Assembly (NCBI RefSeq): GCF_002531755.2
Contig: NZ_CP035001.1
Coordinates: 558,001-622,000 of the forward strand
Reading direction: 5' to 3'
DNA from: Rhizobium acidisoli
GTDB taxonomy: Bacteria > Pseudomonadota > Alphaproteobacteria > Rhizobiales > Rhizobiaceae
DNA length: 64,000 nt
The translations under genes and the position numbers were made by a program. Shown here piece after piece: positions 1-15,210 of this stretch; within the stretch, counting starts at the first letter, position 1, and the number at the start of each line of letters is the position of its first letter. The notes beneath the pieces were generated by a model that saw nothing but the letters and a program-made list of their open reading frames with translations, searched no databases and was not told the DNA's origin.

Positions 1-108
1 ACAACCATGGAGAAGTTCATCCAGTAGATACTCGAATGCCTGCAATGAATCTGCGCGTCTCGCCTGGGGAACTTCGGCGAGATGCAGTGGTTTTCCCTTG
101 ACTGTCAT
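1..108 (-). CDS. N-terminus of a divergent gene, possibly GntR-family regulator (partial)
   Basis: An open frame of 36 codons reads leftwards from an ATG at 108 and runs off the window edge. The peptide begins MTVKGKPLHLAEVPQARRA and continues into a helix-like stretch ending ADSLQAFEYLLDELLHGC. This resembles the short basic leader and first helix of GntR/FadR winged-helix regulators. It is divergent from the ABC transporter operon starting at 182, with about 73 bp between them, which is a common place for a local regulator. A weak GGGGTG lies upstream as a possible ribosome site. Too little is visible to prove the family. Confidence 0.4.
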   Translation of the reverse strand, partial: MTVKGKPLHLAEVPQARRADSLQAFEYLLDELLHGC

Positions 109-181: not shown

Positions 182-2070
<1,889 letters not shown>

Positions 2071-2077
<7 letters not shown>

Positions 2078-3978
2078 CGCGTCGCACCTTTCTGAGCGGC
2101 CTTGTCGGCGCGGCAATCGCCCCCGCGGTGCTTCGGGCGGAGCCGGCCGGCGAGCCTGAGTTTCTCAAGGAGCGGCTGGCATCGGGCAGCCTGCCTGGTA
2201 TGGCCGAGCGTATTCCCGCCCGCCCGCGCATCGTCAACCTGAAGGAGATGGGGCTCGCTCCCGGCAGCTACGGCGGCACGGTGCGCACCATCATCGGCAG
2301 CCAGCGCGACATCCGCTTCATGACGATTTACGGCTATGCCCGGCTGATCGGCTACAACAAGCACCTACAGTTCCAGCCCGATATCCTCGCCGATTTCCAC
2401 TCGGAAGACGATACTATCTTCACCTTCACGCTGCGCGAGGGCCATAAATGGTCCGATGGAGAGCCGTTCACGGCCGACGACTTCCGCTACTGGTGGGAAG
2501 ACGTCATCCTGAACGACAAGCTGACGCCGGGCGGCGGCGCGCTGGAGCTTCGCCCGCACGGCAGCCTGCCGCGTTTCGAGGTCCTCGATCCGCTGACGGT
2601 CCGCTACACCTGGGAAAAGCCCAACCCGATGTTCCTGCCGACGCTGGCAGGGCCGATCCCGCTCGTCATCGTCGGGCCGGCGCATTATCTCAAGCAGTTC
2701 CATAAGAAGTTCCAGCCCGACCAGGCGAAGATGGAACAGATGATGCAGGCCAACCGCGTCAAGAAATGGCAGGACCTGCACATCAAGATGGCCCGCTCCT
2801 ACCGGCCTGAGAATCCCAACCTGCCGACGCTCGATCCCTGGCGCAACACGACGGCGCTACCGGCCGAGCAATTCGTTTTCGAGCGCAACCCGTTCTTCCA
2901 CCGCGTCGACGAGACCGGAAGGCAGCTTCCTTATCTCGACCGGTTCATCCTCAACGTCTCCTCCTCCTCGATCATCGCCGCCAAGGCGGGTGCCGGCGAA
3001 GCCGACCTGCAGGCGACCGGCATCGACTTCAACGACTACACCTTTCTGAAAGAAGCTGAGAAGCGCTTCCCGGTGAAGGTCAATCTCTGGAAGGTGGCTC
3101 GCGGTTCGCGCATCACGCTGCTGCCTAACCTCAACTGTGCCGACGAGGTATGGCGCGGTCTTTTCCGCGATGTGCGCCTGCGCCGCGCCTTGTCGCTGGC
3201 GATCGACCGGCACGAGATCAATATGGTCGCCTTCTATGGCTTGGGCACGCCAAGTGCCGATACCGTGCTGCCCGACAGCCCGCTGTTCAAGCAGGAATAT
3301 GCCGATGCCTTCGTGAAGTTCGATGCCGACGAGGCCAACCGGCTGCTCGACGAGGTCGGCCTGACAAAGCGCGGCGATGACGGCATAAGGCTGCTGCCGG
3401 ACGGGCGGCGCGCCGAGATCACCGTCGAAACTGCCGGCGAGAGCAATCTCGACACCGACGTGCTGGAACTGGTGCACGATCACTGGGCCAATATCGGCCT
3501 TGCGCTTTATACCCGCACCTCGCAGCGCGACGTCTTCCGTAACCGCGCCATGAGCGGCTCGATCATGATGTCGATCTGGTACGGCCTCGACAATGGTGTT
3601 CCCACGGCCGACATGTCGCCCTCCGGACTGGCGCCGACCCTCGACGATCAGCTGCAATGGCCGCTCTGGGGCATGCATTACCTCTCCGCCGGCCAGGAGG
3701 GCACAGCGCCCGACCTGCCTGAGGCGGCCGAACTGGTCGACCTGCTCGGCCAGTGGGGCTCGACCGCAAAATTCGAGGAGCGCCAGGTGATCTGGCACAA
3801 GATGCTGGCGCTCTATACACAGCAGGTGTTCTCCATCGGGCTGATCAACAGCACGCTGCAGCCGGTCCTTTGCGCTGCAAAGCTGCAGAACTTGCCGGAG
3901 AAAGCCCTCTACGGCTTCGATCCCACCTCCTATCTCGGCATCTACATGCCGGATGCATTCTGGTACAAGGAGGCCTGA
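2071..3978 (+). CDS. ABC transporter periplasmic solute-binding protein, family 5 (635 aa)
   Basis: Family 5 extracellular binding protein, the class that binds peptides, opines and some oligosaccharides. The N-terminus has a twin-arginine type export signal (TRRTFLSGLVGAAIAPAVLRA), so it is probably exported folded to the periplasm. The body shows family landmarks such as FTLREGHKWSDGEPFTADDF and RRALSLAIDRHEI. It is longer than classical DppA (about 535 aa). The ATG at 2071 overlaps the last codons of the ATPase gene and has an AAGGAG site 8-10 nt upstream, so the genes are translationally coupled. Permeases follow immediately. Confidence 0.9.
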
Positions 3979-3981
3979 GGC

Positions 3982-4980
3982 GTGCTCAGATACATTCTCT
4001 GGCGCGTCGCCGCCATGGTGCCGACGCTCTTCGTCATTTCGGCGCTGGTTTTCACCATCATCGAGCTGCCGCCGGGTGACTTCTTCGAGAGCCAGATCGC
4101 CGAGCTGCGCGCTTCCGGCGAGACCGCCAACCTCCAGGAAATCGAGGAGATGCGACAGCAATACGGTTTCGACAAGCCGGAAATCGTGCGCTATTTCTAC
4201 TGGGTCGGCGGCATGCTGCACGGCGATTTCGGCTATTCCTTTGAATACCAGATGCCGGTTTCCGATGTGGTCGGCGAGCGCCTGTGGCTGACGATCCTCG
4301 TCTCCTTCACGACGATCCTCCTCACCTGGCTGATTGCCTTTCCGATCGGCATTTATTCGGCCACGCACCAGTATAGCTGGAGCGATTACGGGCTGACCTT
4401 CCTCGGCCTGCTCGGCATCGCCGTTCCGAATTTCATGCTGGCGCTGATCCTGATGTATTTCGCCAATATCTGGTTCGGCATCTCGATCGGCCATCTGATG
4501 GACCAGCAATATATCTCTGCGCCGATGAGCTGGGCGAAGGCGCGCTCAATTCTCTCCCACCTGTGGATCCCCGTCATCATCGTCGGCACGGCAGGGACTG
4601 CCGGCATGATCCGGCGGCTGCGCGCCAACCTGCTCGACGAGATGCAGAAGCAATATGTGACGACGGCGCGCGCCAAGGGCCTGCATCCGATACGGGCGCT
4701 GCTGAAATATCCGCTGCGCATGGCGCTCAACTTCTTCGTCGCCGATATCGGCTCGATCCTGCCGTCGATCATCTCCGGTGCCGAGATCGTCGCGATCGTG
4801 CTGTCGCTGGAGACGACGGGGCCGATGCTGATCAAGGCGCTGCAGAGCCAGGACATGTATCTTGCCGGCTCGTTCCTGATGTTCCTCGCCTTCCTCAACG
4901 TCATCGGCGTTTTGATCTCCGACATCGCCCTCGGCTTCCTCGATCCCCGCATCCGTCTGCAAGGCAGGAGCACCAAATAA
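3982..4980 (+). CDS. ABC transporter permease (DppB/OppB type)
   Basis: Inner-membrane permease of 332 aa. An N-terminal membrane helix (IPTLFVISALVFTIIE-like) is followed by the GDF.FS-type periplasmic segment (GDFGYSFEYQ) and five further hydrophobic segments. A cytoplasmic EAA-like loop (YVTTARAKGLHP) docks on the ATPase. The start is GTG at 3982, preceded by a strong AAGGAGG at 3967-3973 that overlaps the end of the binding-protein gene. It forms the channel together with the next gene. Confidence 0.9.
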   Translation: MLRYILWRVAAMVPTLFVISALVFTIIELPPGDFFESQIAELRASGETANLQEIEEMRQQYGFDKPEIVRYFYWVGGMLHGDFGYSFEYQMPVSDVVGERLWLTILVSFTTILLTWLIAFPIGIYSATHQYSWSDYGLTFLGLLGIAVPNFMLALILMYFANIWFGISIGHLMDQQYISAPMSWAKARSILSHLWIPVIIVGTAGTAGMIRRLRANLLDEMQKQYVTTARAKGLHPIRALLKYPLRMALNFFVADIGSILPSIISGAEIVAIVLSLETTGPMLIKALQSQDMYLAGSFLMFLAFLNVIGVLISDIALGFLDPRIRLQGRSTK

Positions 4981-6152
4981 TGTCGCCCCTTCCCGCACCC
5001 GGCGCGCCGCTTCCCCATTACGTCTCGACCGCGCCGTTCGATCCGCTGGCGACCGAAACCATGACGGCGGCGCAATCGCGCATCCATCTAGCTTCGCAGA
5101 AGCAGCTGATGTGGTGGAAGTTCAAGCAGCACAAGCTCGCCTTGATCTCCGGCATCTTTCTCGCCGCCGTCTACCTGATGATCCTGATCGTGGAGTTCCT
5201 GGCGCCCTACGGCCTGCATACGCGCAATGTCGATTTCATTCACGCGCCGCCGCAGCGTGTGCATTTCTTCGACAAGGGCAATTTCGTCGGTCCCTTCGTC
5301 TATGGCCGCAGCATGACGCTCGATCTCGATACGCTGCACCGCGTCTATAAGGACAAGCCGAACGACGTACAGCCGATCCGTTTCTTCTGCCGTGGCGATG
5401 CCTATAAATTCTGGGGTATTGCCGCCTCGAACTATCATCTGGTCTGCCCGGCGATCGGCGGGCAGATGTTCCTGCTCGGCACCGACCGGCTCGGCCGCGA
5501 CGTGCTCTCGCGCATCCTCTACGGCGCGCGGATATCGCTGACGATCGGCCTGATCGGCATTTCGATCAGCTTCCTGCTCGGCATCGTCATCGGCGGCCTT
5601 GCCGGTTATCGCGGCGGCATTTTCGACCTCGTCGTCCAGCGCCTGATCGAAGTGCTGCAATCGCTGCCGAGCCTGCCGCTATGGATGGCGCTGGCCGCCA
5701 TCATGCCGGTGACGTGGAGCCCGATCGTCATTTATTTCGGGATCACCGTCATCCTCGGCATCATCGACTGGACGGGGCTTGCCCGCGCCGTGCGCTCCAA
5801 ACTTCTGGCGCTGCGCGAAGAAGATTACGTCCAGGCGGCACAGCTGATGGGCGCCAGCACGCCGCGCATCATCGGACGGCATCTGGTGCCGGGTTTCATG
5901 TCGCATCTGATTGCCTCGGCGACGATTTCGATCCCCGGCATGATTCTCGGCGAGACCGCGCTCTCCTTCCTCGGCCTCGGCCTTCGCCCGCCGATCACCA
6001 GCTGGGGCATCCTGCTGACCGAGGCAAAAAGCGTCAGCGTCATCGCCTTTTATCCTTGGCTGCTCTATCCGATCATTCCTGTTGTTCTTGTCATTTTGGC
6101 GTTCAACTTTCTGGGAGACGGCTTGCGTGATGCGGCAGATCCCTACAAATAG
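4980..6152 (+). CDS. ABC transporter permease (DppC/OppC type) with large periplasmic insert
   Basis: The second permease, 390 aa, starts at the ATG in the TAATG overlap with the previous stop; a longer frame upstream is only the overlap with the first permease. After the first membrane helix (near residues 55-75) there is a stretch of about 90 residues rich in aromatic and charged amino acids before the canonical GTDRLGRDVLSRILYGAR motif. This is longer than the loop of standard DppC. The EAA loop is EEDYVQAAQLMGAS. The insert may contact the enlarged binding protein (inference). Confidence 0.9.
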   Translation: MSPLPAPGAPLPHYVSTAPFDPLATETMTAAQSRIHLASQKQLMWWKFKQHKLALISGIFLAAVYLMILIVEFLAPYGLHTRNVDFIHAPPQRVHFFDKGNFVGPFVYGRSMTLDLDTLHRVYKDKPNDVQPIRFFCRGDAYKFWGIAASNYHLVCPAIGGQMFLLGTDRLGRDVLSRILYGARISLTIGLIGISISFLLGIVIGGLAGYRGGIFDLVVQRLIEVLQSLPSLPLWMALAAIMPVTWSPIVIYFGITVILGIIDWTGLARAVRSKLLALREEDYVQAAQLMGASTPRIIGRHLVPGFMSHLIASATISIPGMILGETALSFLGLGLRPPITSWGILLTEAKSVSVIAFYPWLLYPIIPVVLVILAFNFLGDGLRDAADPYK

Positions 6153-6252
6153 CAGAAAACCCGGCGGCGCCTTATGGTACCGCCCCCGCCACGTGGCCTC
6201 CGGACGGTGGGGGTACTAACGCATGCTGTTCACCCCGGAGGGAACACCACCC

Positions 6253-7458
6253 ATGGCCAGACGTCTCGAAGATGCGCGCATCCTCATGTACAGTCACGAC
6301 ACCTTCGGCCTCGGCCATCTCAGGCGCTGTCGCGCGATCGCCCATGCGCTGGTCGAGGATTATCGCGGCCTCAACATTCTGATCATTTCGGGTGCGACGA
6401 TCGCCGGCGCCTTCGACTATCGTGCCCGCGTCGACTTCGTGAAGATCCCGAGCGTCATCAAGCTGCGCAACGGCGAATATACCTCGCTTGCCAGCCATAT
6501 CGATCTGCACGAGACGCTGAAGATGCGCGAATCGAGCATTCGCCACACGGCCGAGACCTTCCAGCCCGATATTTTCATCGTCGACAAGGAGCCGATGGGA
6601 CTGAAGGGCGAGGTCGAGGATACGCTTGCCTATCTCAAGGCCCGCGGCACCGTGCTGGTGCTCGGCCTGCGCGAGGTGATGGACGCGCCGCATCTGCTCG
6701 ACGCCGAGTGGAAGCGGAACGGCATCATGCAAAAGATCGACCAATATTACGACAGCGTCTGGGTCTATGGTCCGCCGGATTTCTACGATCCGCTTGTCGG
6801 TCTCGACGTGCCAGCGAGCCTGCGCCGAAAGATGGATTTCGTCGGCTTCCTGCAGCGCAGCGTCTCCAAGGGCAAGAGTTCGATCAACGCCCGCAAGGAT
6901 AATTACCTCCTGGTCACGACAGGCGGCGGCGGCGACGGCTCCGATCTCGTCCACGACGTGATGAACGCCTACGAGGCCGATCCGACGCTGACGCAGAAGG
7001 CGCTTGTCGTGCTCGGTCCCTATATGCCGGCGGCCGAGCGCGCCAAGCTGGTGCAAAAGGGCGAAGCCATTCCCTATATCGAGGTGATCGAGTTCGACAA
7101 CCACATGGAAGAGCTGATCGACGGCGCCACCGGCGTCGTCGCCATGGGCGGCTACAACACCTATTGCGAAATCCTCTCCTTCGACAAGCCGGCGCTCATC
7201 GTGCCGCGCGTCAAGCCGCGCGAGGAACAGCTGTTGCGTGCCCAGCGGGCAAGCGCGCTCGGCCTCGTCGATATGCTTCTGCCGGAACAATCGGCCGATC
7301 CCACCATCATGTCCGAGGCGCTGAAACGTCTGCCTTCCCGCCTGCCGCCGTCAAAGAGCGGCAGCAACATGCATCTTGAAGGGCTGGACCACATCTCGCA
7401 GACGGTCGGGCGATGGATTGACGGCCGCGCCAGCCACCTTTCCCTCGTCGCGGAATAG
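6253..7458 (+). CDS. Glycosyltransferase, GT28/MurG-like fold
   Basis: A protein of 401 aa with the GT-B fold of MurG/UGT-like nucleotide-sugar transferases. It opens with ILMYSHDTFGLGHLRRC, the N-domain acceptor loop. The C-domain has the glycine-rich TTGGGGDGSDL and the donor-binding VVAMGGYNTYCEILSF.KPALIVPR segment. The ATG at 6253 is chosen because GGAGGG lies about 10 nt upstream; another ATG at 6223 lacks this. It follows the importer after 100 bp that hold an imperfect GC hairpin. Substrate is unknown; it probably acts on cell-surface or storage polysaccharide. Confidence 0.8.
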   Translation: MARRLEDARILMYSHDTFGLGHLRRCRAIAHALVEDYRGLNILIISGATIAGAFDYRARVDFVKIPSVIKLRNGEYTSLASHIDLHETLKMRESSIRHTAETFQPDIFIVDKEPMGLKGEVEDTLAYLKARGTVLVLGLREVMDAPHLLDAEWKRNGIMQKIDQYYDSVWVYGPPDFYDPLVGLDVPASLRRKMDFVGFLQRSVSKGKSSINARKDNYLLVTTGGGGDGSDLVHDVMNAYEADPTLTQKALVVLGPYMPAAERAKLVQKGEAIPYIEVIEFDNHMEELIDGATGVVAMGGYNTYCEILSFDKPALIVPRVKPREEQLLRAQRASALGLVDMLLPEQSADPTIMSEALKRLPSRLPPSKSGSNMHLEGLDHISQTVGRWIDGRASHLSLVAE

Positions 7459-7467
7459 GGCACAGCC

Positions 7468-8715
7468 TTGCCGCCACGCCGCAAGATCCTCGTCGTGCTG
7501 AAAGGCTATCCCCGCCTTTCGGAAACCTTCATCGCCCAGGAGCTGCTCGGCTTGGAAAAGGCCGGCTTTGACCTGACGCTGATTTCGATGCGCCGGCCGA
7601 CCGACAAGAAGCGCCACCCCGTGCATGACGAGATCAGGGCGCGGGTGGTCTACCTGCCGGAATATCTGCACGAGGAGCCGATCCGCGTGCTGAAAGGCCT
7701 GGTCGCCGGGTTCTCCAAACCCGGCTTCAAGGTCCTGATCAAACGTTTCCTCGCTGACCTCAAGCGCGACATCTCCCGCAACCGCTTCCGCCGTCTCGGC
7801 CAGGCGCTGGTGCTCGGACGCGAGTGGCCGGATGGCGGGCAATGGCTGCATGCCCATTTCATCCACACGCCGGCCTCGGTGACGGAATATGCGAGCATCC
7901 TCACCGGCACACCCTGGACCTGTTCGGCCCATGCCAAGGACATCTGGACGTCGCCGGACTGGGAGCTGCAGGAAAAACTCGGCAGCGCCCGCTGGGCCGT
8001 CACCTGCACCAGGACGGGCTATGAGCATATGCGCAAGCTGACCTCCCGCAAGGATGCGGTGCACTTGAGCTACCACGGTCTCGATCTTGCCCGGTTCGGC
8101 CATTTTGCCGGCGAGCGTTCAGAGAGAACCGGCAGCGACTCCGACGATCCCGCCTTCATCCTCAGCGTCGGCCGCGCCGTCGAGAAGAAGGGTTATGACG
8201 TGCTGCTGCGTGCACTGGCGCTGCTGCCCGCTGACCTGCATTGGCGCATGGACCATATTGGCGGCGGCGAGGAGCTTGCCAAGCTGAAGGCGCTCGCCGG
8301 CAAGCTCGGCCTCTCCCACCGCATCGTCTGGAAGGGGGCCATGGCGCAGGAAGACGTGCTCGATCACTACCGCCGCGCCGACCTTTTCGCGCTCGCCTGC
8401 CGGATCGCCGCCAATGGCGACCGCGACGGCCTGCCGAACGTGCTGGTGGAGGCTTCGAGCCAGCGGCTCGTCTGCCTCTCGACGGCGGTATCCGGCGTTC
8501 CGGAACTTCTGGAGGACGGCGAAAACGGCCTTGTCGTACCGCCGGAGGATCCGGCGCTGCTGGCCAAGGCGCTCGAGACGGCGATCCGCAACCCGGCGCT
8601 CCGCAAGCGCCTCGGCGACGCCGCCGAAAGGCGGGTGCGCGACGATTTCGATTATCACTCCAGCATCCGGCAGCTCACCGGCCTGTTCGAGGCCGAATGG
8701 CAGAAGGCGTCATGA
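7468..8715 (+). CDS. Glycosyltransferase family 4 (colanic-acid type)
   Basis: A 415-aa GT4 retaining glycosyltransferase. It shows the N-terminal loop VVLKGYPRLSETFIAQELL, the central linker SYHGLDLARF, then ILSVGRAVEKKGYDVLL and the donor-site E-x7-E region (DGLPNVLVEASSQ, then SGVPELLEDGENGLVV). The start is TTG at 7468, nine bases after the previous stop; a weaker start choice than its neighbours. It is the middle gene of a three-glycosyltransferase run, which suggests stepwise building of one glycan. Confidence 0.82.
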   Translation: MPPRRKILVVLKGYPRLSETFIAQELLGLEKAGFDLTLISMRRPTDKKRHPVHDEIRARVVYLPEYLHEEPIRVLKGLVAGFSKPGFKVLIKRFLADLKRDISRNRFRRLGQALVLGREWPDGGQWLHAHFIHTPASVTEYASILTGTPWTCSAHAKDIWTSPDWELQEKLGSARWAVTCTRTGYEHMRKLTSRKDAVHLSYHGLDLARFGHFAGERSERTGSDSDDPAFILSVGRAVEKKGYDVLLRALALLPADLHWRMDHIGGGEELAKLKALAGKLGLSHRIVWKGAMAQEDVLDHYRRADLFALACRIAANGDRDGLPNVLVEASSQRLVCLSTAVSGVPELLEDGENGLVVPPEDPALLAKALETAIRNPALRKRLGDAAERRVRDDFDYHSSIRQLTGLFEAEWQKAS

Positions 8716-9860
8716 CGGCACCGCGCATCTTCTTCTACGTCCAGCACCTGCTCGGCATCGGCCATATTGCCCGCGCCAGCCGCATCGCCAACGCGCTCGT
8801 CAAGGACGGCTTCGACGTCACGGTCGTCACCGGCGGCCTGCCGGTGCCGGGTTTTCCCGGCGACGGCGTCAGGACCGTTGCCCTGCAGCCGGTCGTCGCC
8901 AGCAATGCCGGTTTTTCCGGCCTCGCCGATGCCGAGGGCCGCCCCGCCGGCGAGGATTTCCTCAATGCCCGCCGCGATCTGCTGCTTGAGGCCTTCCACG
9001 CCGCCAGGCCCGATGTCGTCATCATCGAAGCCTTCCCCTTCGGCCGGCGGCAAATGCGCTTCGAACTGCTGCCGCTGCTTGCGGCGATCGACAAGGCGGA
9101 GCCGCGGCCGAAGCTCCTCAGCTCCGTGCGCGACATCCTGCAGGAAAACCGCAAGGCCGGCCGCGACGCGGAGACTGCGGCCCTGGTCAAGGATCATTTC
9201 GATGCGGTGCTCGTCCATGGCGACCCCGGTTTCACCAGGCTTGAGGACACTTTTCCGCTGACGGCAGAGATCGCCGACAGGCTGCGTTATACCGGCCTCG
9301 TCGCAGCGCCGCCGGCACCGGAACCGACCGAAACCTTCGACATTATCGCATCGGCAGGCGGCGGCGCGGTCGGGGCGGCGCTGATCGGCGCCGCAAAAGA
9401 GGCGGCGGCCCTCCTGCCCGGCAATCTTCGCTGGCTGCTGATAGCAGGCCCGAACCTGCCGGAAGCCGATTTCGCTGCACTGTCTGAGGATGCGGCGCCA
9501 AACGTGACGCTGGTCCGCTTCCGCAGGGATTTCCCCTCGCTGCTGCGCGGCGCCAAGGTTTCGATCTCCCAGGCAGGCTACAACACGGTCGGCGACCTGC
9601 TGCGCACCGAATGCCGGGCAGTCCTCATCCCCTTCGTCGCCGGCGGCGAAACCGAACAGACGGTGCGCGCCGAGCGGCTGCAGGCGCTTGGTCTCGCCGA
9701 CATTCTGCCGGAAACGGGACTGACGCCGGGCCATGTGAAGGAAGCCGTCGAAAAGGCACTCGCCACGCCGCGGACCGGGCCAGTCTCGCTCGATCTCGAC
9801 GGGGCTGAGAAAACCGCCGGCATCATTCGCTCCATCATTGCCGGCGACTCGAAGCTTTGA
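8712..9860 (+). CDS. Glycosyltransferase, GT28/MurG-like fold, paralogue of the gene at 6253
   Basis: A protein of 382 aa whose start overlaps the previous stop (ATGA). It opens with IFFYVQHLLGIGHIARASRIANAL, matching the family and the gene two positions upstream, and its C-domain contains SISQAGYNTVGDLLRTECRAVLIPF and a GGETEQ donor loop. The overlap implies translation coupled to the GT4 gene. Two related GT28-like enzymes flanking a GT4 enzyme suggest a repeated step or two similar acceptors. Confidence 0.8.
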   Translation: MTAPRIFFYVQHLLGIGHIARASRIANALVKDGFDVTVVTGGLPVPGFPGDGVRTVALQPVVASNAGFSGLADAEGRPAGEDFLNARRDLLLEAFHAARPDVVIIEAFPFGRRQMRFELLPLLAAIDKAEPRPKLLSSVRDILQENRKAGRDAETAALVKDHFDAVLVHGDPGFTRLEDTFPLTAEIADRLRYTGLVAAPPAPEPTETFDIIASAGGGAVGAALIGAAKEAAALLPGNLRWLLIAGPNLPEADFAALSEDAAPNVTLVRFRRDFPSLLRGAKVSISQAGYNTVGDLLRTECRAVLIPFVAGGETEQTVRAERLQALGLADILPETGLTPGHVKEAVEKALATPRTGPVSLDLDGAEKTAGIIRSIIAGDSKL

Positions 9861-9961: not shown

Positions 9962-10657
9962 ATGTCCCGCTCCGAACGCCTCCTCGACCTCCTCCAGGTA
10001 TTGCGCCGCCACCGTCGGCCGGTGAGTGGCGGGGTGCTGGCCGACGAGATAGGCGTCAGTATCCGCACCCTCTATCGGGATATCGCCAGCCTTCAGGCCC
10101 AGGGCGCGGCGATCGAGGGCGAACCGGGTGTCGGTTATATCTTGAAACCCGGGTTTCTCCTGCCGCCGCTGATGTTTCCGCCGGAGGAGATCGAAGCGCT
10201 TGTCCTCGGCTCCCGGTGGGTGGCGGACAGAGGGGACGATCACTTGCGCGATGCGGCGCGAAATGCGCTGGCGCGGATTGCCGCCGTGCTGCCGCCCGAA
10301 TTGCGCGACGCACTGGATGCATCCGCTCTCCTGGTGGGGCCTGGCGTCAAACTCCCTGTCGACCAGGTCGATCCGGCACTTCTGCGCAAGGCGATCCGCA
10401 CCGAACGCAAGCTTTTGATCTCCTATAGCGACGGAGCCGGCGTGGCGTCGGAGCGTGTGGTGTGGCCGTTCGCGCTTGCTTTTTTCGACCAGGTGCGCCT
10501 CCTCCTTGGCTGGTGCGAACTCCGCCAGGATTTCCGCTCGTTTCGCACGGATCGAATCGTGCATGCGCAAGTGCTCGACGCCCGGTATCCGAAGCGCCGG
10601 CAGGCGCTGCTGAAACAATGGCGGGAGATCCAGGGAATATCGCATCGAGACGTATGA
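9962..10657 (+). CDS. YafY/DeoR-like transcriptional regulator (HTH_11 + WYL domain)
   Basis: A 231-aa regulator. Residues 1-60 form a winged helix (RLLDLLQVLRRHRRPVSGGVLADEIGVSIRTLYRDIASLQ), and a WYL-type sensor domain follows from about residue 135 (RKLLISYSDGAGVASERVVWPFAL, then FRTDRI). WYL domains usually sense ligands or nucleic-acid derived signals. Identical palindromes occur 23 bp before its start and 1 bp after its stop, just upstream of the next gene. It therefore probably controls itself and the downstream VOC-EVE pair. Confidence 0.87.
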   Translation: MSRSERLLDLLQVLRRHRRPVSGGVLADEIGVSIRTLYRDIASLQAQGAAIEGEPGVGYILKPGFLLPPLMFPPEEIEALVLGSRWVADRGDDHLRDAARNALARIAAVLPPELRDALDASALLVGPGVKLPVDQVDPALLRKAIRTERKLLISYSDGAGVASERVVWPFALAFFDQVRLLLGWCELRQDFRSFRTDRIVHAQVLDARYPKRRQALLKQWREIQGISHRDV

Positions 10658-10658
10658 T

Positions 10659-10677
10659 ACTGCCAGAATTTGGCAGT
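10659..10677. promoter_or_regulatory. 19-bp palindromic operator upstream of the VOC gene
   Basis: ACTGCCA-GAATT-TGGCAGT is a perfect inverted repeat with a 5-nt centre. It starts one base after the WYL-regulator stop and ends 46 bp before the VOC ATG. The 17-bp core arms match the site at 9920-9938, while the centre differs. This is what is expected of two sites bound by the same dimeric regulator. Confidence 0.7.
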
Positions 10678-10723
10678 GTCTGGCCATAAGCTTCTGCTGT
10701 CCAACGAACAACAGGAGAGCCTT

Positions 10724-11098
10724 ATGACCGCCAGCAACAGCATTCTTCTCTACGTGACCGACGCCCCGACGAGCGCCCGCTTCTACACCAGCCTGCTCGG
10801 GAAGGAGCCCGTGGAGGCGAGCGCGACCTTCGCCATGTTCATCCTGCCTTCCGGCCTGGGGCTCGGTCTCTGGGGCAAAGCGGGCGTGGAGCCGGCGCCG
10901 GCAGCAGCGGGCGGCGGCTGCGACATAGGATTTAAGGTCGCGACATCAGACATGGTCGATGCGACCCATGCCGATTGGCAGGCCAAGGGCGCAAACATCG
11001 TCATGGCGCCAACCGATCTCGATTTCGGCCGAAGCTTCGTCGCCGCCGATCCCGATGGGCATCGTCTGCGCGTCTACACCGTGACCGAGGAGGCTTGA
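10724..11098 (+). CDS. VOC (glyoxalase/bleomycin-resistance) family protein
   Basis: A 124-aa single-module vicinal-oxygen-chelate protein. It starts SNSILLYVTDAPTSARFYTSLLG, the first beta-alpha-beta-beta-beta unit, and ends with the second (FVAADPDGHRLRVYTV). Such proteins act as isomerases, antibiotic-binding proteins or dioxygenases; the reaction is not predictable here. The ATG at 10724 is preceded by ACAGGAGAG. It lies behind a WYL-regulator operator and 3 bp before the EVE gene, so the two form an operon. Confidence 0.82.
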   Translation: MTASNSILLYVTDAPTSARFYTSLLGKEPVEASATFAMFILPSGLGLGLWGKAGVEPAPAAAGGGCDIGFKVATSDMVDATHADWQAKGANIVMAPTDLDFGRSFVAADPDGHRLRVYTVTEEA

Positions 11099-11101
11099 GC
11101 C

Positions 11102-11554
11102 ATGGCCAAAGCCTGGATCGCCGTCGCTTCCGCAGAGCATGTCCGCATCGGCCGTCAAGCCGGCTTCATGCAGGTCTGTCACGGCAAGGCATCACCCCTC
11201 AGGCGGATCACGCCCGGGGATCGCGTGATTTACTACTCGCCCACCGTCGTCTTTGGCGGCAAAGACCGCCTGCAGGCCTTCACCGCGATCGGCGCGGCAC
11301 GCGACGGTGCGCCTTACCAGGTGGAGATGGAAAGCGGTTTCAGGCCCTGGCGGCGCGATGTCGATTGGCAGTCGGCAGAGGAAACGCCGATCCGGCCTCT
11401 GCTCGACCGGCTTTCCTTCACACGGGTCGGCCCCAATTGGGGCTACCAGCTTCGCTTCGGCCTGTTCGGCATCAGCAATGAGGACGCCGATATGATCGCG
11501 GAAGCGATGAGCTGCTCCTATCCGAACGCCGCGCCGCGAGCGGTCGCCGCTTAA
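11102..11554 (+). CDS. EVE-domain protein (UPF0310 type)
   Basis: A 150-aa protein consisting of one EVE domain, a PUA-related fold that binds modified bases in nucleic acids in characterised members. Visible landmarks are the opening [13 protein letters not shown], the loop [21 protein letters not shown] and the closing [15 protein letters not shown]. It starts 3 bp after the VOC stop and is followed by a strong terminator at 11586, closing the WYL-controlled operon. Its cellular role in rhizobia is unknown. Confidence 0.85.
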
Positions 11555-11929: not shown

Positions 11930-14644
11930 ATGGAAAAAAGCCTCGCCCGCTACATCTGGAAGAACACGCGGCTGCAGCAGCTGTGGATTCTGGCTGTCGT
12001 CGCCGCCTCGATGGTGCCCTATTTCCTGTCCTTCGACCTGCCGAAGCAGATCGTCAACGGACCGATCCAGGGCGATGGTTTCGAAGGTCCCGGCGCAAGG
12101 CAGACCTTCATGCACATCGCCTACGACATTCCGCTGATCGGCCATGTCGAATTCTTTCAAGGCTTGCAGCTCAACCGCTTCCAGATGCTGATGGCCCTCA
12201 GCCTGGTGTTTCTGGCGCTGGTGGTGCTGAACGGTCTCTTCAAGTTCTATATCAACACCTATAAGGGCCGGCTCGGCGAGCGCATGCTGCGCCGTATCCG
12301 CTTCGAACTGATCGACCGGGTGCTGCGTTTTCCGCCCATCCACTTCAAGCGGGTGAAATCGGCCGAGATCGCCACGATGATCAAGGACGAGGTGGAGCCG
12401 ATGGGCGGCTTCACCGGCGACGCCTTCGTCTCGCCTGCCCTTCTCGGCGGCCAGGCGATCACCGCGCTCGCCTTCATCATCGTCCAGAATTTCTGGCTCG
12501 GCATGATTGCCGCCGGCATCGTCGGCGTCCAGGCCATCGTCATTCCCCGCATGCGCAAGCGGCTGCTGGATCTTGGCCGCCAGCGGCAGCTGACGGCACG
12601 CGAGCTTTCCGGCCGTGTCGGCGAAATCGTCGACGGCATCGGCACGATCCACGGCAACGACACGTCCAACCTCGAGCGCGCCGACATCGCCTCGCGGCTC
12701 GGCCGGATCTTTTCGATCCGCTACGACCTTTACCAGTGGAAGTTCCTGGTGAAGTTCATCAACAACTTCCTCGCCCAGGTGACGCCCTTCCTGTTCTACG
12801 CGATCGGCGGTTACCTGGCGTTGCAGGGCAGGCTCGACATCGGCCAGCTGGTCGCCGTCATATCGGCCTACAAGGACCTGCCCGGGCCACTGAAGGAACT
12901 GATCGACTGGGACCAGATGCGCCAGGACGTGCAGGTGAAGTACCAGCAGGTCTACGAGCAGTTCAACGTCGAACCGCTGATCGACAGCCGCATCCAGGAG
13001 CTGGCGACCGCCCCCGTCGGCGCGCTGACCAGCGCGCTCGTCATCACCAATCTCTCGCTCTCCGACGACAGCGGCGCTCGTCTCGTCGACCACGTCTCCG
13101 TCGAGATCAAGCCGAACGAGACGGTGGCGATCGTCGGCCCGAACGGCAGCGGTGCGGAAGCCTTCGCCGAAGCGCTCGGCCGCATGGTCTGGCCCGATTC
13201 CGGCCGCATCACCATCGACGGACGCGACCTGCTGGACCTGCCGGAATCGATCACCGGCCGGCGCATTTCCTATGCCTCGGCCGATACCTTTTTCTTTCAT
13301 GGCACGCTCGCTAGCAATCTGCTCTACGGCCTCAAGCACGCGCCGATGACCGATCCTGTCTACGACGAGAAGGAAGCGCTCGAATATAAATGGCACTCCG
13401 TCGAGGCGGTGAAGGCCGGCAATCCGACGCTCGATCTCAACAGCGACTGGGTGGATTACCAGGCAGCGGGCGCCAGCGGGCCGGAGGATTTGCTGAAAGC
13501 CATCCGGCCGGTGCTCGATGCCGTGCTGATCTCGCAGGATATCCTCGATCTGGCGCTGCGCTCGACCGTCAACACTGACGTGCATGTCGCCGTCAGCGAA
13601 CATGTCGTCGCCCTGCGCGCCTCGTTGAGAGACCGGCTGCGCGACGAAGGGCTCGACGGCATCGTCGTGCCATTCGATTTCGACGCCTATAACGCCCAGG
13701 CAACGGTCGGCGAAAATCTGCTCTTCGGCACGATGAAGCGGCCGCTGATGACCAATCGCCGGCTTGCCGCCCATCCCTATTTCCAGCAGCTGTTCCGCGA
13801 GACGGGCTTGAGCACCGACCTCTACGCCATGGGCCTTGAGATCGCCGAGAATGCCGTCGAACTCTTCCACGACCTGCCGCCGGACCATCCGTTCTTCCAG
13901 CAGCTGACCTTCATGACGGCCGACGACATCCCGACCTATCAGGCGCTGCTGCAGAAGCTGCAAAGCCGCCGCTTCGAGGATGCGACGCCCGAGGAGCGTT
14001 CGGCCATCATCCGCTTAAGTTTTGCCTATATCGAGCCGCGGCACCGCTTCGGCCTGCTGACCGACGAGTTGATGGACAAGATCGTCAGCGCCCGCAAGCA
14101 GTTCCACGAGCATATCCCGGCCGACCTCGGCGAGCTGATCGAGCGCTACGACGCCGAGCGTTTTACGCCGTCGGCAAGCCTGATGGACAATGTGCTCTTC
14201 GGTCGCATCGCCTACCAGCAGGCCGACGCCTCCGACCGCATCCGCGCCATCATGGGCGAACTTTTCGACGCGCTCGATCTTTATGACGATGTCCTGGCGA
14301 TCGGGCTGGAATTCGACGTCGGCTCCGGCGGCAAGCGGCTGACCATGGTGCAGCGGCAGAAGCTGAACCTGGCGCGTGCGCTGCTGAAACGCTCGGACTA
14401 TTTCATCTTCAACCGGCCGCTATCGGCGCTCGACCAGCGCGTTCAGGACCAGATCACCCGCAACATCGTCCAGGACCTGCACGAAGAAGGCCAGCGGCCG
14501 TCAATCATCTGGGTGCTCTCCAATGCGCGCCTTGCCGAGATGTTCGACCGGATCCTGCTCTTCGACCGCGGCGGCTTGGCCGAAGCCGGAAACTATCCCG
14601 AACTTTCCGAGAAAAACGGGATGTTCAAGGAACTGTTATCGTAA
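11930..14644 (+). CDS. ABC-exporter-like membrane protein with degenerate, expanded nucleotide-binding domain
   Basis: A 904-aa protein. The first 330 residues look like an ABC exporter membrane domain (hydrophobic segments near 20-35, 85-105, 170-205 and 275-300; coupling-helix region around 225-245). The ATPase region is unusual. Walker A reads GPNGSGAEAF, with Ala409 replacing the catalytic Lys. The signature reads GSGGKRLTMVQRQ and the Walker B end FIFNRPLSALD, with Asn828-Arg829 in place of Asp-Glu. About 330 residues separate Walker A and the signature, against about 110 normally, and the NLLYG-type motif occurs three times (near 462, 594 and 753). ATP hydrolysis is therefore unlikely. 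A cNMP-binding gene follows. Confidence 0.8.
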   Translation: MEKSLARYIWKNTRLQQLWILAVVAASMVPYFLSFDLPKQIVNGPIQGDGFEGPGARQTFMHIAYDIPLIGHVEFFQGLQLNRFQMLMALSLVFLALVVLNGLFKFYINTYKGRLGERMLRRIRFELIDRVLRFPPIHFKRVKSAEIATMIKDEVEPMGGFTGDAFVSPALLGGQAITALAFIIVQNFWLGMIAAGIVGVQAIVIPRMRKRLLDLGRQRQLTARELSGRVGEIVDGIGTIHGNDTSNLERADIASRLGRIFSIRYDLYQWKFLVKFINNFLAQVTPFLFYAIGGYLALQGRLDIGQLVAVISAYKDLPGPLKELIDWDQMRQDVQVKYQQVYEQFNVEPLIDSRIQELATAPVGALTSALVITNLSLSDDSGARLVDHVSVEIKPNETVAIVGPNGSGAEAFAEALGRMVWPDSGRITIDGRDLLDLPESITGRRISYASADTFFFHGTLASNLLYGLKHAPMTDPVYDEKEALEYKWHSVEAVKAGNPTLDLNSDWVDYQAAGASGPEDLLKAIRPVLDAVLISQDILDLALRSTVNTDVHVAVSEHVVALRASLRDRLRDEGLDGIVVPFDFDAYNAQATVGENLLFGTMKRPLMTNRRLAAHPYFQQLFRETGLSTDLYAMGLEIAENAVELFHDLPPDHPFFQQLTFMTADDIPTYQALLQKLQSRRFEDATPEERSAIIRLSFAYIEPRHRFGLLTDELMDKIVSARKQFHEHIPADLGELIERYDAERFTPSASLMDNVLFGRIAYQQADASDRIRAIMGELFDALDLYDDVLAIGLEFDVGSGGKRLTMVQRQKLNLARALLKRSDYFIFNRPLSALDQRVQDQITRNIVQDLHEEGQRPSIIWVLSNARLAEMFDRILLFDRGGLAEAGNYPELSEKNGMFKELLS

Positions 14645-14742: not shown

Positions 14743-15210
14743 ATGCTGTTGAGAGACGAAGTGGAAATGCTGCGCCGGGTGCCGATCTTTTCGAGGATCG
14801 CGCCAGCCAAGCTCAAGCTTTTGGCCTTCACCTCCGACCGCATGACCTATAAGGCCGGACAGAACCTCTTCCATCAGGGCGATGTCGGCGACGCCGCCTA
14901 TGTCATTCTCTCCGGCACCGCCGATATCATCGTCTCCTCGCCCGCCGGCGAGATCAAGGTCGCCGATGTCGAACTCAACTCCATCGTCGGCGAAATCGCC
15001 ATCCTCTGCGATGTCTCGCGCACGGCAACCGTTCGCGCCACCTCGCCGCTCGAGGTGCTGCGCATCAGCAAGGAACACTTCCTGAAGCTGCTCAGCGACT
15101 TTCCGGAGATGGCCGTGGAAATCATGCGGGTGCTGGCCGACCGCCTGAACCACACCACCGCGGAACTGACCGCGGCCCGCGCGGCAAAGCAGCCGCAGAT
15201 GGCGCAATAA
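14743..15210 (+). CDS. Stand-alone cyclic-nucleotide-binding domain protein
   Basis: A 155-aa protein that is essentially one cNMP-binding domain: LRRVPIFSRIAPAKLKLLAF, then FHQGDVGDAAYVILSG and the phosphate-binding cassette GEIAILCDVSRTATVRA with the conserved Glu and Arg. No helix-turn-helix follows, unlike Crp/Fnr regulators. It lies 98 bp after the degenerate ABC-like gene, across a small GC hairpin, and probably senses cyclic nucleotides for that protein or another partner (inference). A smaller number of such proteins bind no cNMP. Confidence 0.8.
   Translation: MLLRDEVEMLRRVPIFSRIAPAKLKLLAFTSDRMTYKAGQNLFHQGDVGDAAYVILSGTADIIVSSPAGEIKVADVELNSIVGEIAILCDVSRTATVRATSPLEVLRISKEHFLKLLSDFPEMAVEIMRVLADRLNHTTAELTAARAAKQPQMAQ

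Follow-up and report, generated by a model that had tools for sequence, protein, structure and literature searches.

ABC*, an ATP-binding cassette (ABC) exporter-like pseudo-ATPase of 904 amino acids (P0001), is encoded by the open reading frame (ORF) at 11930..14644 of a 64,000-nucleotide stretch of the Rhizobium acidisoli contig NZ_CP035001.1 (positions 558,001 to 622,000), hereafter the window. All features of the window described below lie on its forward (+) strand. In this study, we report that ABC* carries, by profile comparison, a triplicated segment in its nucleotide-binding domain (NBD), that key residues of a working ATP site are replaced in it and that a cyclic nucleotide monophosphate (cNMP)-binding domain follows it directly. 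Since the membrane domain and the sequence boxes of the triplicated segment are kept, the ATP site is ever changing and the cNMP neighbour is constant, the most fitting reading of ABC* is that of a switch; rather than an ordinary pump, it may be a device that puts cell-envelope synthesis under the control of a signal. We give roughly even chances to the reading that ABC* and the cNMP protein constitute a cyclic-nucleotide-responsive pseudo-ATPase device in an envelope-glycan pathway. The database records examined label ABC* as a generic ABC transporter, and no description of the family was found in the literature of open-licence PMC papers.

Architecture and motifs of ABC*

Pfam reveals only two matches in ABC*, both above cut-off: ABC_membrane at residues 87-312 (PF00664, 56.9 bits) and ABC_tran at residues 387-485 (PF00005, 52.1 bits). 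The protein thus has the type IV exporter architecture of a membrane domain followed by an NBD. The membrane domain extends over residues ~1-345 (11930..12964), and the ABC_tran match covers model positions 2-80 of 137 only. Neither a peptidase nor a cNMP domain was found in ABC* itself by the Pfam scan. Among curated families, MsbA gives the best E-value, at a score far under the equivalog cut-off (NCBIfam TIGR02203, 182.9 bits against 602).

The catalytic residues of a working ATPase are replaced. An earlier note, made from the letters of the window alone, had reported a lost Walker A lysine, an altered signature and a Walker B motif ending in Asn-Arg, and motif alignment confirms all three. 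The degenerate Walker A motif GPNGSGAE (residues 403-410; 13136..13159) has Ala409 in the place of the lysine, the signature LTMVQ (residues 804-808; 14339..14353) keeps only the Leu and the Gln of LSGGQ, and Walker B ends in Asn828-Arg829 (14402..14416). In addition, the Q-loop position is Ala451 and the H-loop position is Ser864 (14519..14521).

Walker A and signature are 395 residues apart in ABC*. In 53 distinct canonical domains, which the same loci encode and of which many are importer ATPases, the distance is 84-117 residues (median 115). The span, which the earlier note had put at about three times the normal one, is hence more than threefold; against ABCB4 (~98 residues, our own count on the alignment) it is about fourfold. 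Three boxes lie along it, NLLYG at 463, NLLFG at 596 and NVLFG at 754, which are the exact starts of what had been placed near 462, 594 and 753. That such a box is normally single also holds: a loose box pattern is absent from 47 of the 53 canonical domains, and the other 6 have it a single time each.

Residues 377-487 and 783-902 of ABC* align to ABCB4 residues 403-513 and 510-627, which are adjoining parts of one NBD. This alignment of the flanks suggests that ABC* has a single NBD, interrupted after the first box by ~290-295 residues. A family-specific insert lies at residues ~479-740 (13364..14149). A known domain within the insert was considered and rejected, PDB matches being found only at E values of 0.19 and 0.5; in Pfam, no family matched more than one of 15 members (best E 0.029).

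A triplicated segment

Profile comparison locates the three box segments as repeat 1, with the Q-loop strand and the NLLYG box (residues 447-469; 13268..13336), repeat 2, with the box FD..YN..AT..ENLLFG (residues 578-602; 13661..13735), and repeat 3, with the NVLFG box (residues 737-760; 14138..14209), which runs into the signature region. In profile-profile comparisons on a 230-row alignment, the second and third segments scored 73.1, the first and second 39.7 and the first and third 33.6, with match probabilities of 97, 85 and 66%; the best scores of 20 column-shuffled controls per pair were 15.1, 19.5 and 27.4, respectively. The pair of first and third segments is the weakest.

A second element, VLxxxGLxxDVYxxGL, follows every box and is repeated as well. 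Its copies are at residues ~525-546 (13502..13567; VLxxV..DIY..GL type), ~615-637 (13772..13840) and ~770-794 (14237..14311). Against the best of 30 shuffles per pair, copies 1 and 2 scored 31.3 vs 15.2, copies 1 and 3 scored 22.6 vs 16.8, and copies 2 and 3, at 22.0 vs 20.1, were barely over the null. A longer repeat unit reaching through signature and Walker B was rejected (13.3 against a shuffled maximum of 16.1). Since the repetition takes in box and second element and stops short of signature and Walker B, the unit, judged from these profiles, is the Q-loop strand, the box and the next helix, present three times; strand and helix are named by analogy with canonical NBDs. The internal duplication that the earlier note had suspected is borne out, and it belongs to the whole family and not to this protein in particular. 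All 26 rows of one family alignment retain the insert and the three boxes; as the insert itself was the query that retrieved 25 of these rows, retention of boxes 2 and 3 is partly by construction, and that of box 1, which lies outside the query, is unbiased.

Distribution of the family

The insert is present in 98 of 289 alphaproteobacterial genomes and in 71 of 199 genomes of the order, with one copy in the source genome of the window. In the phylum, 25 of 299 genomes had it, each of these a member of the class, by a search that does not tell which share of the 299 lies outside the class. For comparison between loci we used 79-80 rhizobial-type loci, which are the best-scoring 80 among the matches listed and include close relatives, so that their counts are not independent events. 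A further 40 loci (L111-L150; the other loci) were picked by hand from the class matches, long contigs being favoured and the most divergent ones included; two of them are from genome G042 and three from G154. Three kinds of query supplied the aligned rows: the insert, patterns including box 3 and the full profile. A tree of 82 rows was calculated from membrane-domain columns only, with L005, L011 and many near-duplicates omitted. Rows L167, L168, L169 and L171 combine an odd composition with a very long branch; the branch of L146 is long as well. On this tree, the ABC* of a Cypionkella metagenome-assembled genome and of Loktanella (L096, L109), both Rhodobacterales, sits inside the rhizobial clade, a placement that suggests horizontal transfer.

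Changes at the ATP site across the family

That Ala409 might be confined to this protein was rejected, since the loss of the Walker A lysine is common to the rhizobial-type loci: none of the 80 has K/R at position 409 (A in 43, G in 30, others in 6, one gap), in comparison to 29/29 class rows and 120/120 profile hits with K/R. The comparison with rhizobial homologues that the earlier note had called for thus bears out the replacement. The Walker B Asp is changed to Asn in 80/80 rhizobial-type, 18/29 class and 102/120 profile rows, and the Glu of the motif remains in 1/80, 18/29 and 109/120 of them. For the H-loop His the corresponding numbers of rows that keep it are 0/80, 13/29 and 34/120, and for the Q-loop Gln 0/80, 10/29 and 87/120. 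Other divergent members, e.g. L140, L148, L149, L166-L169, L171 and L177, are also without the Walker A Lys/Arg.

On the 82-row tree, the Walker A K/R state changed at least 6 times, 4 of the changes being forced by starred branches; Walker B Glu and Asp each account for 11 changes. The rhizobial clade (23 rows, support 99*) is uniformly without K/R. The root of the tree was not inferred, and to speak of loss follows from the general view that exporters started with a working site.

Conservation and selection

Ordered by conservation over the 82 rows, the box residues Asn463, Asn596 and Asn754 come 16th, 4th and 2nd among the 904 positions, and the glycines of the boxes 176th, 74th and 1st. 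These ranks may overstate the conservation of the boxes, since boxes 2 or 3 were part of the patterns or profiles by which the rows were retrieved. Positions 409, 829, 451 and 864 rank 616, 702, 826 and 839.

The ratio of nonsynonymous to synonymous substitution rates (dN/dS) of ABC* against six relatives is 0.08-0.17, and the gene is therefore under purifying selection and not a pseudogene. The membrane domain is the region with the lowest ratio in all six comparisons (0.03-0.11). The ABC* homologue on pSymB of Sinorhizobium meliloti 1021 (L186 13598-16307) has a frame change near residue 135, and among the matches listed three more Sinorhizobium records align only from residue 134-136 onward. 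SMb20813, possibly the ABC* gene, is called the S. meliloti msbA homologue in a passage of PMC10945364.

The cNMP-binding partner

Downstream of ABC*, at 14743..15210, a stand-alone cNMP-binding domain protein of 155 amino acids is encoded (PF00027, 70.8 bits), with a phosphate-binding cassette of the form GE...RTA and, in the Pfam scan, no DNA-binding domain. Its R. etli counterpart is annotated as putative transcriptional regulator. A cNMP-binding domain directly 3' of ABC* on the same strand is found at 120/120 loci (the window and L032-L150), at a distance of no more than 500 bp in 119 of them and of 607 bp in L118. In seven of eight long proteins scanned with Pfam (L143, L147-L150, L173, L178), it is fused to the C-terminus of ABC*. 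As L143 stands apart from the other fused members on the tree, two separate fusions are suggested.

The eighth of these proteins, the unfused L137 (6647-10804), is an open frame of 1386 codons with ~500 leading residues that have no Pfam match. L147, L148 and L149 are diverged paralogues from one genome, G154, all three of them ABC*-cNMP fusions in which the NBD motifs are almost all gone.

By analogy with CRP, the Glu and the Arg of the phosphate-binding cassette are the residues expected to contact the cyclic nucleotide. In the rhizobial-type loci, i.e. the group with the altered ATP site, the Glu is present in 75/78 and the Arg in 78/78 readable rows. Among 34 other unfused loci (L118 omitted from the alignment), 32 have the Glu and 34 the Arg, and among five fused rows three and five, respectively. 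The cNMP protein of the window has the PF00027 domain and both residues, and it is predicted to bind a cyclic nucleotide.

Neighbouring genes

The genes around ABC* follow each other on a single strand in the order Opp importer, GT28-GT4-GT28, YafY/WYL-VOC-EVE cassette, ABC* and cNMP gene. The Opp-type importer genes (182..6152) comprise fused ATPases (182-2077), a binding protein (2071-3978) and two permeases (3982-4980 and 4977-6152). According to Pfam and neighbourhood counts, the glycosyltransferase trio consists of the GT28-type glycosyltransferase A (6223..7458; 'redA' in R. etli CIAT 652), a GT4 glycosyltransferase (7468..8715; 'redB' in R. etli CIAT 652) and the GT28-type glycosyltransferase B (8733..9860, a start that we chose, the longest ORF beginning at 8241). 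Positions 1..27 are the 3'-terminal part of a gene for a class III adenylate/guanylate cyclase; almost all of this gene is upstream of the window (L188:4624-6027), on the same strand, with a UDP-sugar dehydrogenase farther out in the source genome. Adjoining the latter, an ORF at L188 634-2010 presumably encodes a group II intron reverse transcriptase/maturase. Gene order is alike, including the upstream cyclase, on pRLG202 of R. leguminosarum WSM2304, where ABC* is 99.6% identical.

At 9962-11554, genes of the YafY/WYL regulator, VOC and EVE types form the cassette that separates the glycosyltransferase genes from ABC*. Four plasmid records cover at least 80% of this stretch, and the cassette is absent from R. 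etli CIAT 652; it is a local insertion.

Neighbours were counted within 10-kb flanks, with L031 omitted (5.7-kb contig). The glycosyltransferase trio is near ABC* at 61/79 rhizobial-type and 28/40 other loci, i.e. at 89/119. OppA, OppB and OppC occur at 53, 52 and 47 of 79 rhizobial-type loci and at 0/40 others, a Lactamase_B_2 hydrolase at 37/79 and 1/40, a UDP-sugar dehydrogenase at 24/79 and 1/40, and a histidine phosphatase at 0/79 and 28/40. A putative polysaccharide-deacetylase-like protein, which is our own reading of a gene without Pfam match, is found at 36/79 and 22/40. At L092 14426-16081, a cyclase has a 2Fe-2S ferredoxin domain (PF00111 and PF00211), and relatives of it are near ABC* at 13/79 rhizobial-type loci. 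These neighbours suggest a redox input.

Discussion

ABC* aligns with MsbA and ABCB-type (type IV) exporters in its membrane domain and on both flanks of one NBD, and its domains follow each other as they do there. It differs from them by the ~290-residue insert, the tripled box, the altered ATP site and the cNMP partner. By descent ABC* is an exporter; by the motifs tested it falls outside the class of working ATPases, and the mechanism given for it here is hypothetical. Conserved changes of catalytic residues are also described for TAP, MRP1, BmrCD and Pdr5, and transporters with a degenerate site pair it with a canonical one, according to passages of PMC7756269. In contrast to these, the single half that ABC* represents has Walker A, Walker B and signature all changed.

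HetC likewise couples an ABC exporter to a cNMP-type domain, which is needed for HetC function; as described in parts of PMC10986499, HetC carries a C39 peptidase, its cNMP domain is at the N-terminus and a catalytic residue of its ATPase is essential. ABC* differs from HetC in that the cNMP domain is downstream or C-terminal, no peptidase is matched and the Walker B Glu is lost, and so it is not of the HetC type. In CFTR and SUR, the ABC architecture serves gating or signalling, and CFTR, SUR and FtsEX still bind or hydrolyse ATP. We know of no insert like that of ABC* in any of the three. A signalling use of the architecture is described for FtsEX. Unlike in CFTR, SUR and FtsEX, the input of ABC* is probably a cyclic nucleotide.

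The device that we propose is put together from the ancestry of its parts, the triplication, the loss of motifs, purifying selection, the conserved partner and its pocket and the recurring neighbours, all of them read from sequence. ABC* is derived from a type IV (MsbA/ABCB-like) exporter, in which the NBD segment of Q-loop strand, ENLLFG box and next helix was triplicated in the family. The ATP site has decayed repeatedly, furthest in the rhizobial clade that includes the protein of the window, where hydrolysis is presumably absent. ABC* and the downstream cNMP protein, fused in some lineages, would form a physical complex at the membrane that responds to a cyclic nucleotide, cAMP or cGMP, and would serve an envelope-glycan pathway together with the adjoining GT28-GT4-GT28 enzymes. 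For rhizobia we propose that the nucleotide signal, plausibly the product of the upstream cyclase, takes over from ATP hydrolysis as the input. The membrane domain would then switch between states, either passing a glycan precursor or recruiting and regulating the glycosyltransferases; substrate, mechanism and direction of signalling we infer alike. A bolder form of the proposal, which we hold only tentatively, is that in this alphaproteobacterial exporter lineage a signal has taken the place of the energy source: with the ATP site taken apart, the tripled segment replaced the motor, the cNMP domain became the switch and lysine-retaining members are intermediates, the result being a cyclic-nucleotide-gated device for glycan export or synthesis.

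Several observations weigh against the proposed device. The K/R at position 409 is kept in 149/149 rows that are not rhizobial-type, and most of these keep the Walker B Glu; the family overall may still bind or slowly hydrolyse ATP. Nor are all ATP-site residues lost: among the 904 positions compared, the Walker A glycines Gly403 and Gly408 stand at ranks 145 and 112, the signature Gln808 at 136, the D-loop Asp835 at 170 and position 828, which is mostly Asn, at 289. The mean conservation of the insert (0.52) compares with 0.53 for the NBD start and 0.62 for the membrane domain; the possible inflation of the box ranks belongs here as well. The glycosyltransferase trio was not found at 18/79 rhizobial-type and 12/40 other loci. 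A cyclase is near ABC* at at least 30/79 and at 2/40 loci, 30 being a lower bound because the 10-kb flanks miss a cyclase placed as in the source genome. Residues after the pocket Arg deviate in the five fused rows. Finally, domains of the cNMP type can have a different ligand: that of HetC bound ppGpp and cAMP was not protecting, as reported in parts of PMC10986499.

The two outputs of the proposed device, taken singly, make up its nearest rivals, and their probabilities overlap with its own. One of them, a sizeable minority possibility in our view, is that ABC* is purely a scaffold or receptor, whose insert tethers glycosyltransferases or other enzymes to the membrane in a cNMP-controlled way, with nothing being transported. 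Boxes retained in members that have lost almost all catalytic motifs point in this direction, as do ABC-derived transmitters of signals, of which FtsEX is an example, although the constraint on the membrane domain would then require some other cause. This same constraint favours the other, that ABC* is still a transporter, moving a glycan lipid or another substrate without hydrolysis or by ATP binding alone, with insert and cNMP domain as regulators. MsbA as the best curated-family match by E-value, even if far under its cut-off, and the adjoining glycosyltransferases are consistent with it, and TmrAB moves its substrate on mere nucleotide binding (PMC7756269, in part). Against it, Walker A K/R, Q-loop Gln and H-loop His are each found at 0/80 rhizobial-type loci. 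The Walker A Lys is required for ATP binding. Moreover, no outer-membrane or membrane-fusion export partner was found among the 20 neighbour-cluster representatives scanned; a LolA gene among the neighbour clusters (8 loci) is part of an ftsK-lolA neighbourhood. We consider a transporter of this kind rather unlikely, a shade less probable than the scaffold.

Improbable is a third explanation, by which ABC* is half of a heterodimeric exporter like TM287/288 or TAP, with one competent ATP site provided by the other half, encoded elsewhere. Each ATP site of a heterodimeric exporter is built from the Walker A of one subunit and the signature of its partner, and neither motif is intact in ABC*. Exporters with a degenerate site are common and every motif of site 1 of Pdr5 is changed (PMC7756269, in part). 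None of the 20 neighbour-cluster representatives scanned is a second half with PF00664; no search for one was made in the remainder of the genome. That ABC* is a decaying, pseudogene-like exporter without present function is hardly credible: the repeated changes of catalytic motifs and the frame break in the S. meliloti 1021 copy would fit, but the selection data contradict it (dN/dS as above), no internal stop occurs among the matches listed and the partner is found at every one of the 120 loci.

Returning to the switch, the suspicion of the earlier note that the domain does not hydrolyse ATP gains support from the catalytic residues lost in the rhizobial-type loci and from purifying selection, and on this footing is a prediction. 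Its idea of a signalling protein finds indirect support in the adjoining or fused cNMP domain and the upstream class III cyclase. Its further suggestion that ABC* may not be a pump was not borne out, since the lowest dN/dS, in the membrane domain, leaves room for ATP-independent or ligand-gated transport.

Members of the ABC* family are found in about one third of the sampled alphaproteobacterial genomes. They form a natural series from near-canonical to fully altered ATP sites with a putative signalling partner that is constant, which makes the transition from pump to switch directly testable. Cyclic nucleotides are abundant and poorly understood in rhizobia. If the link to glycans is true, ABC* would tie cyclic nucleotides to the cell envelope in these bacteria.

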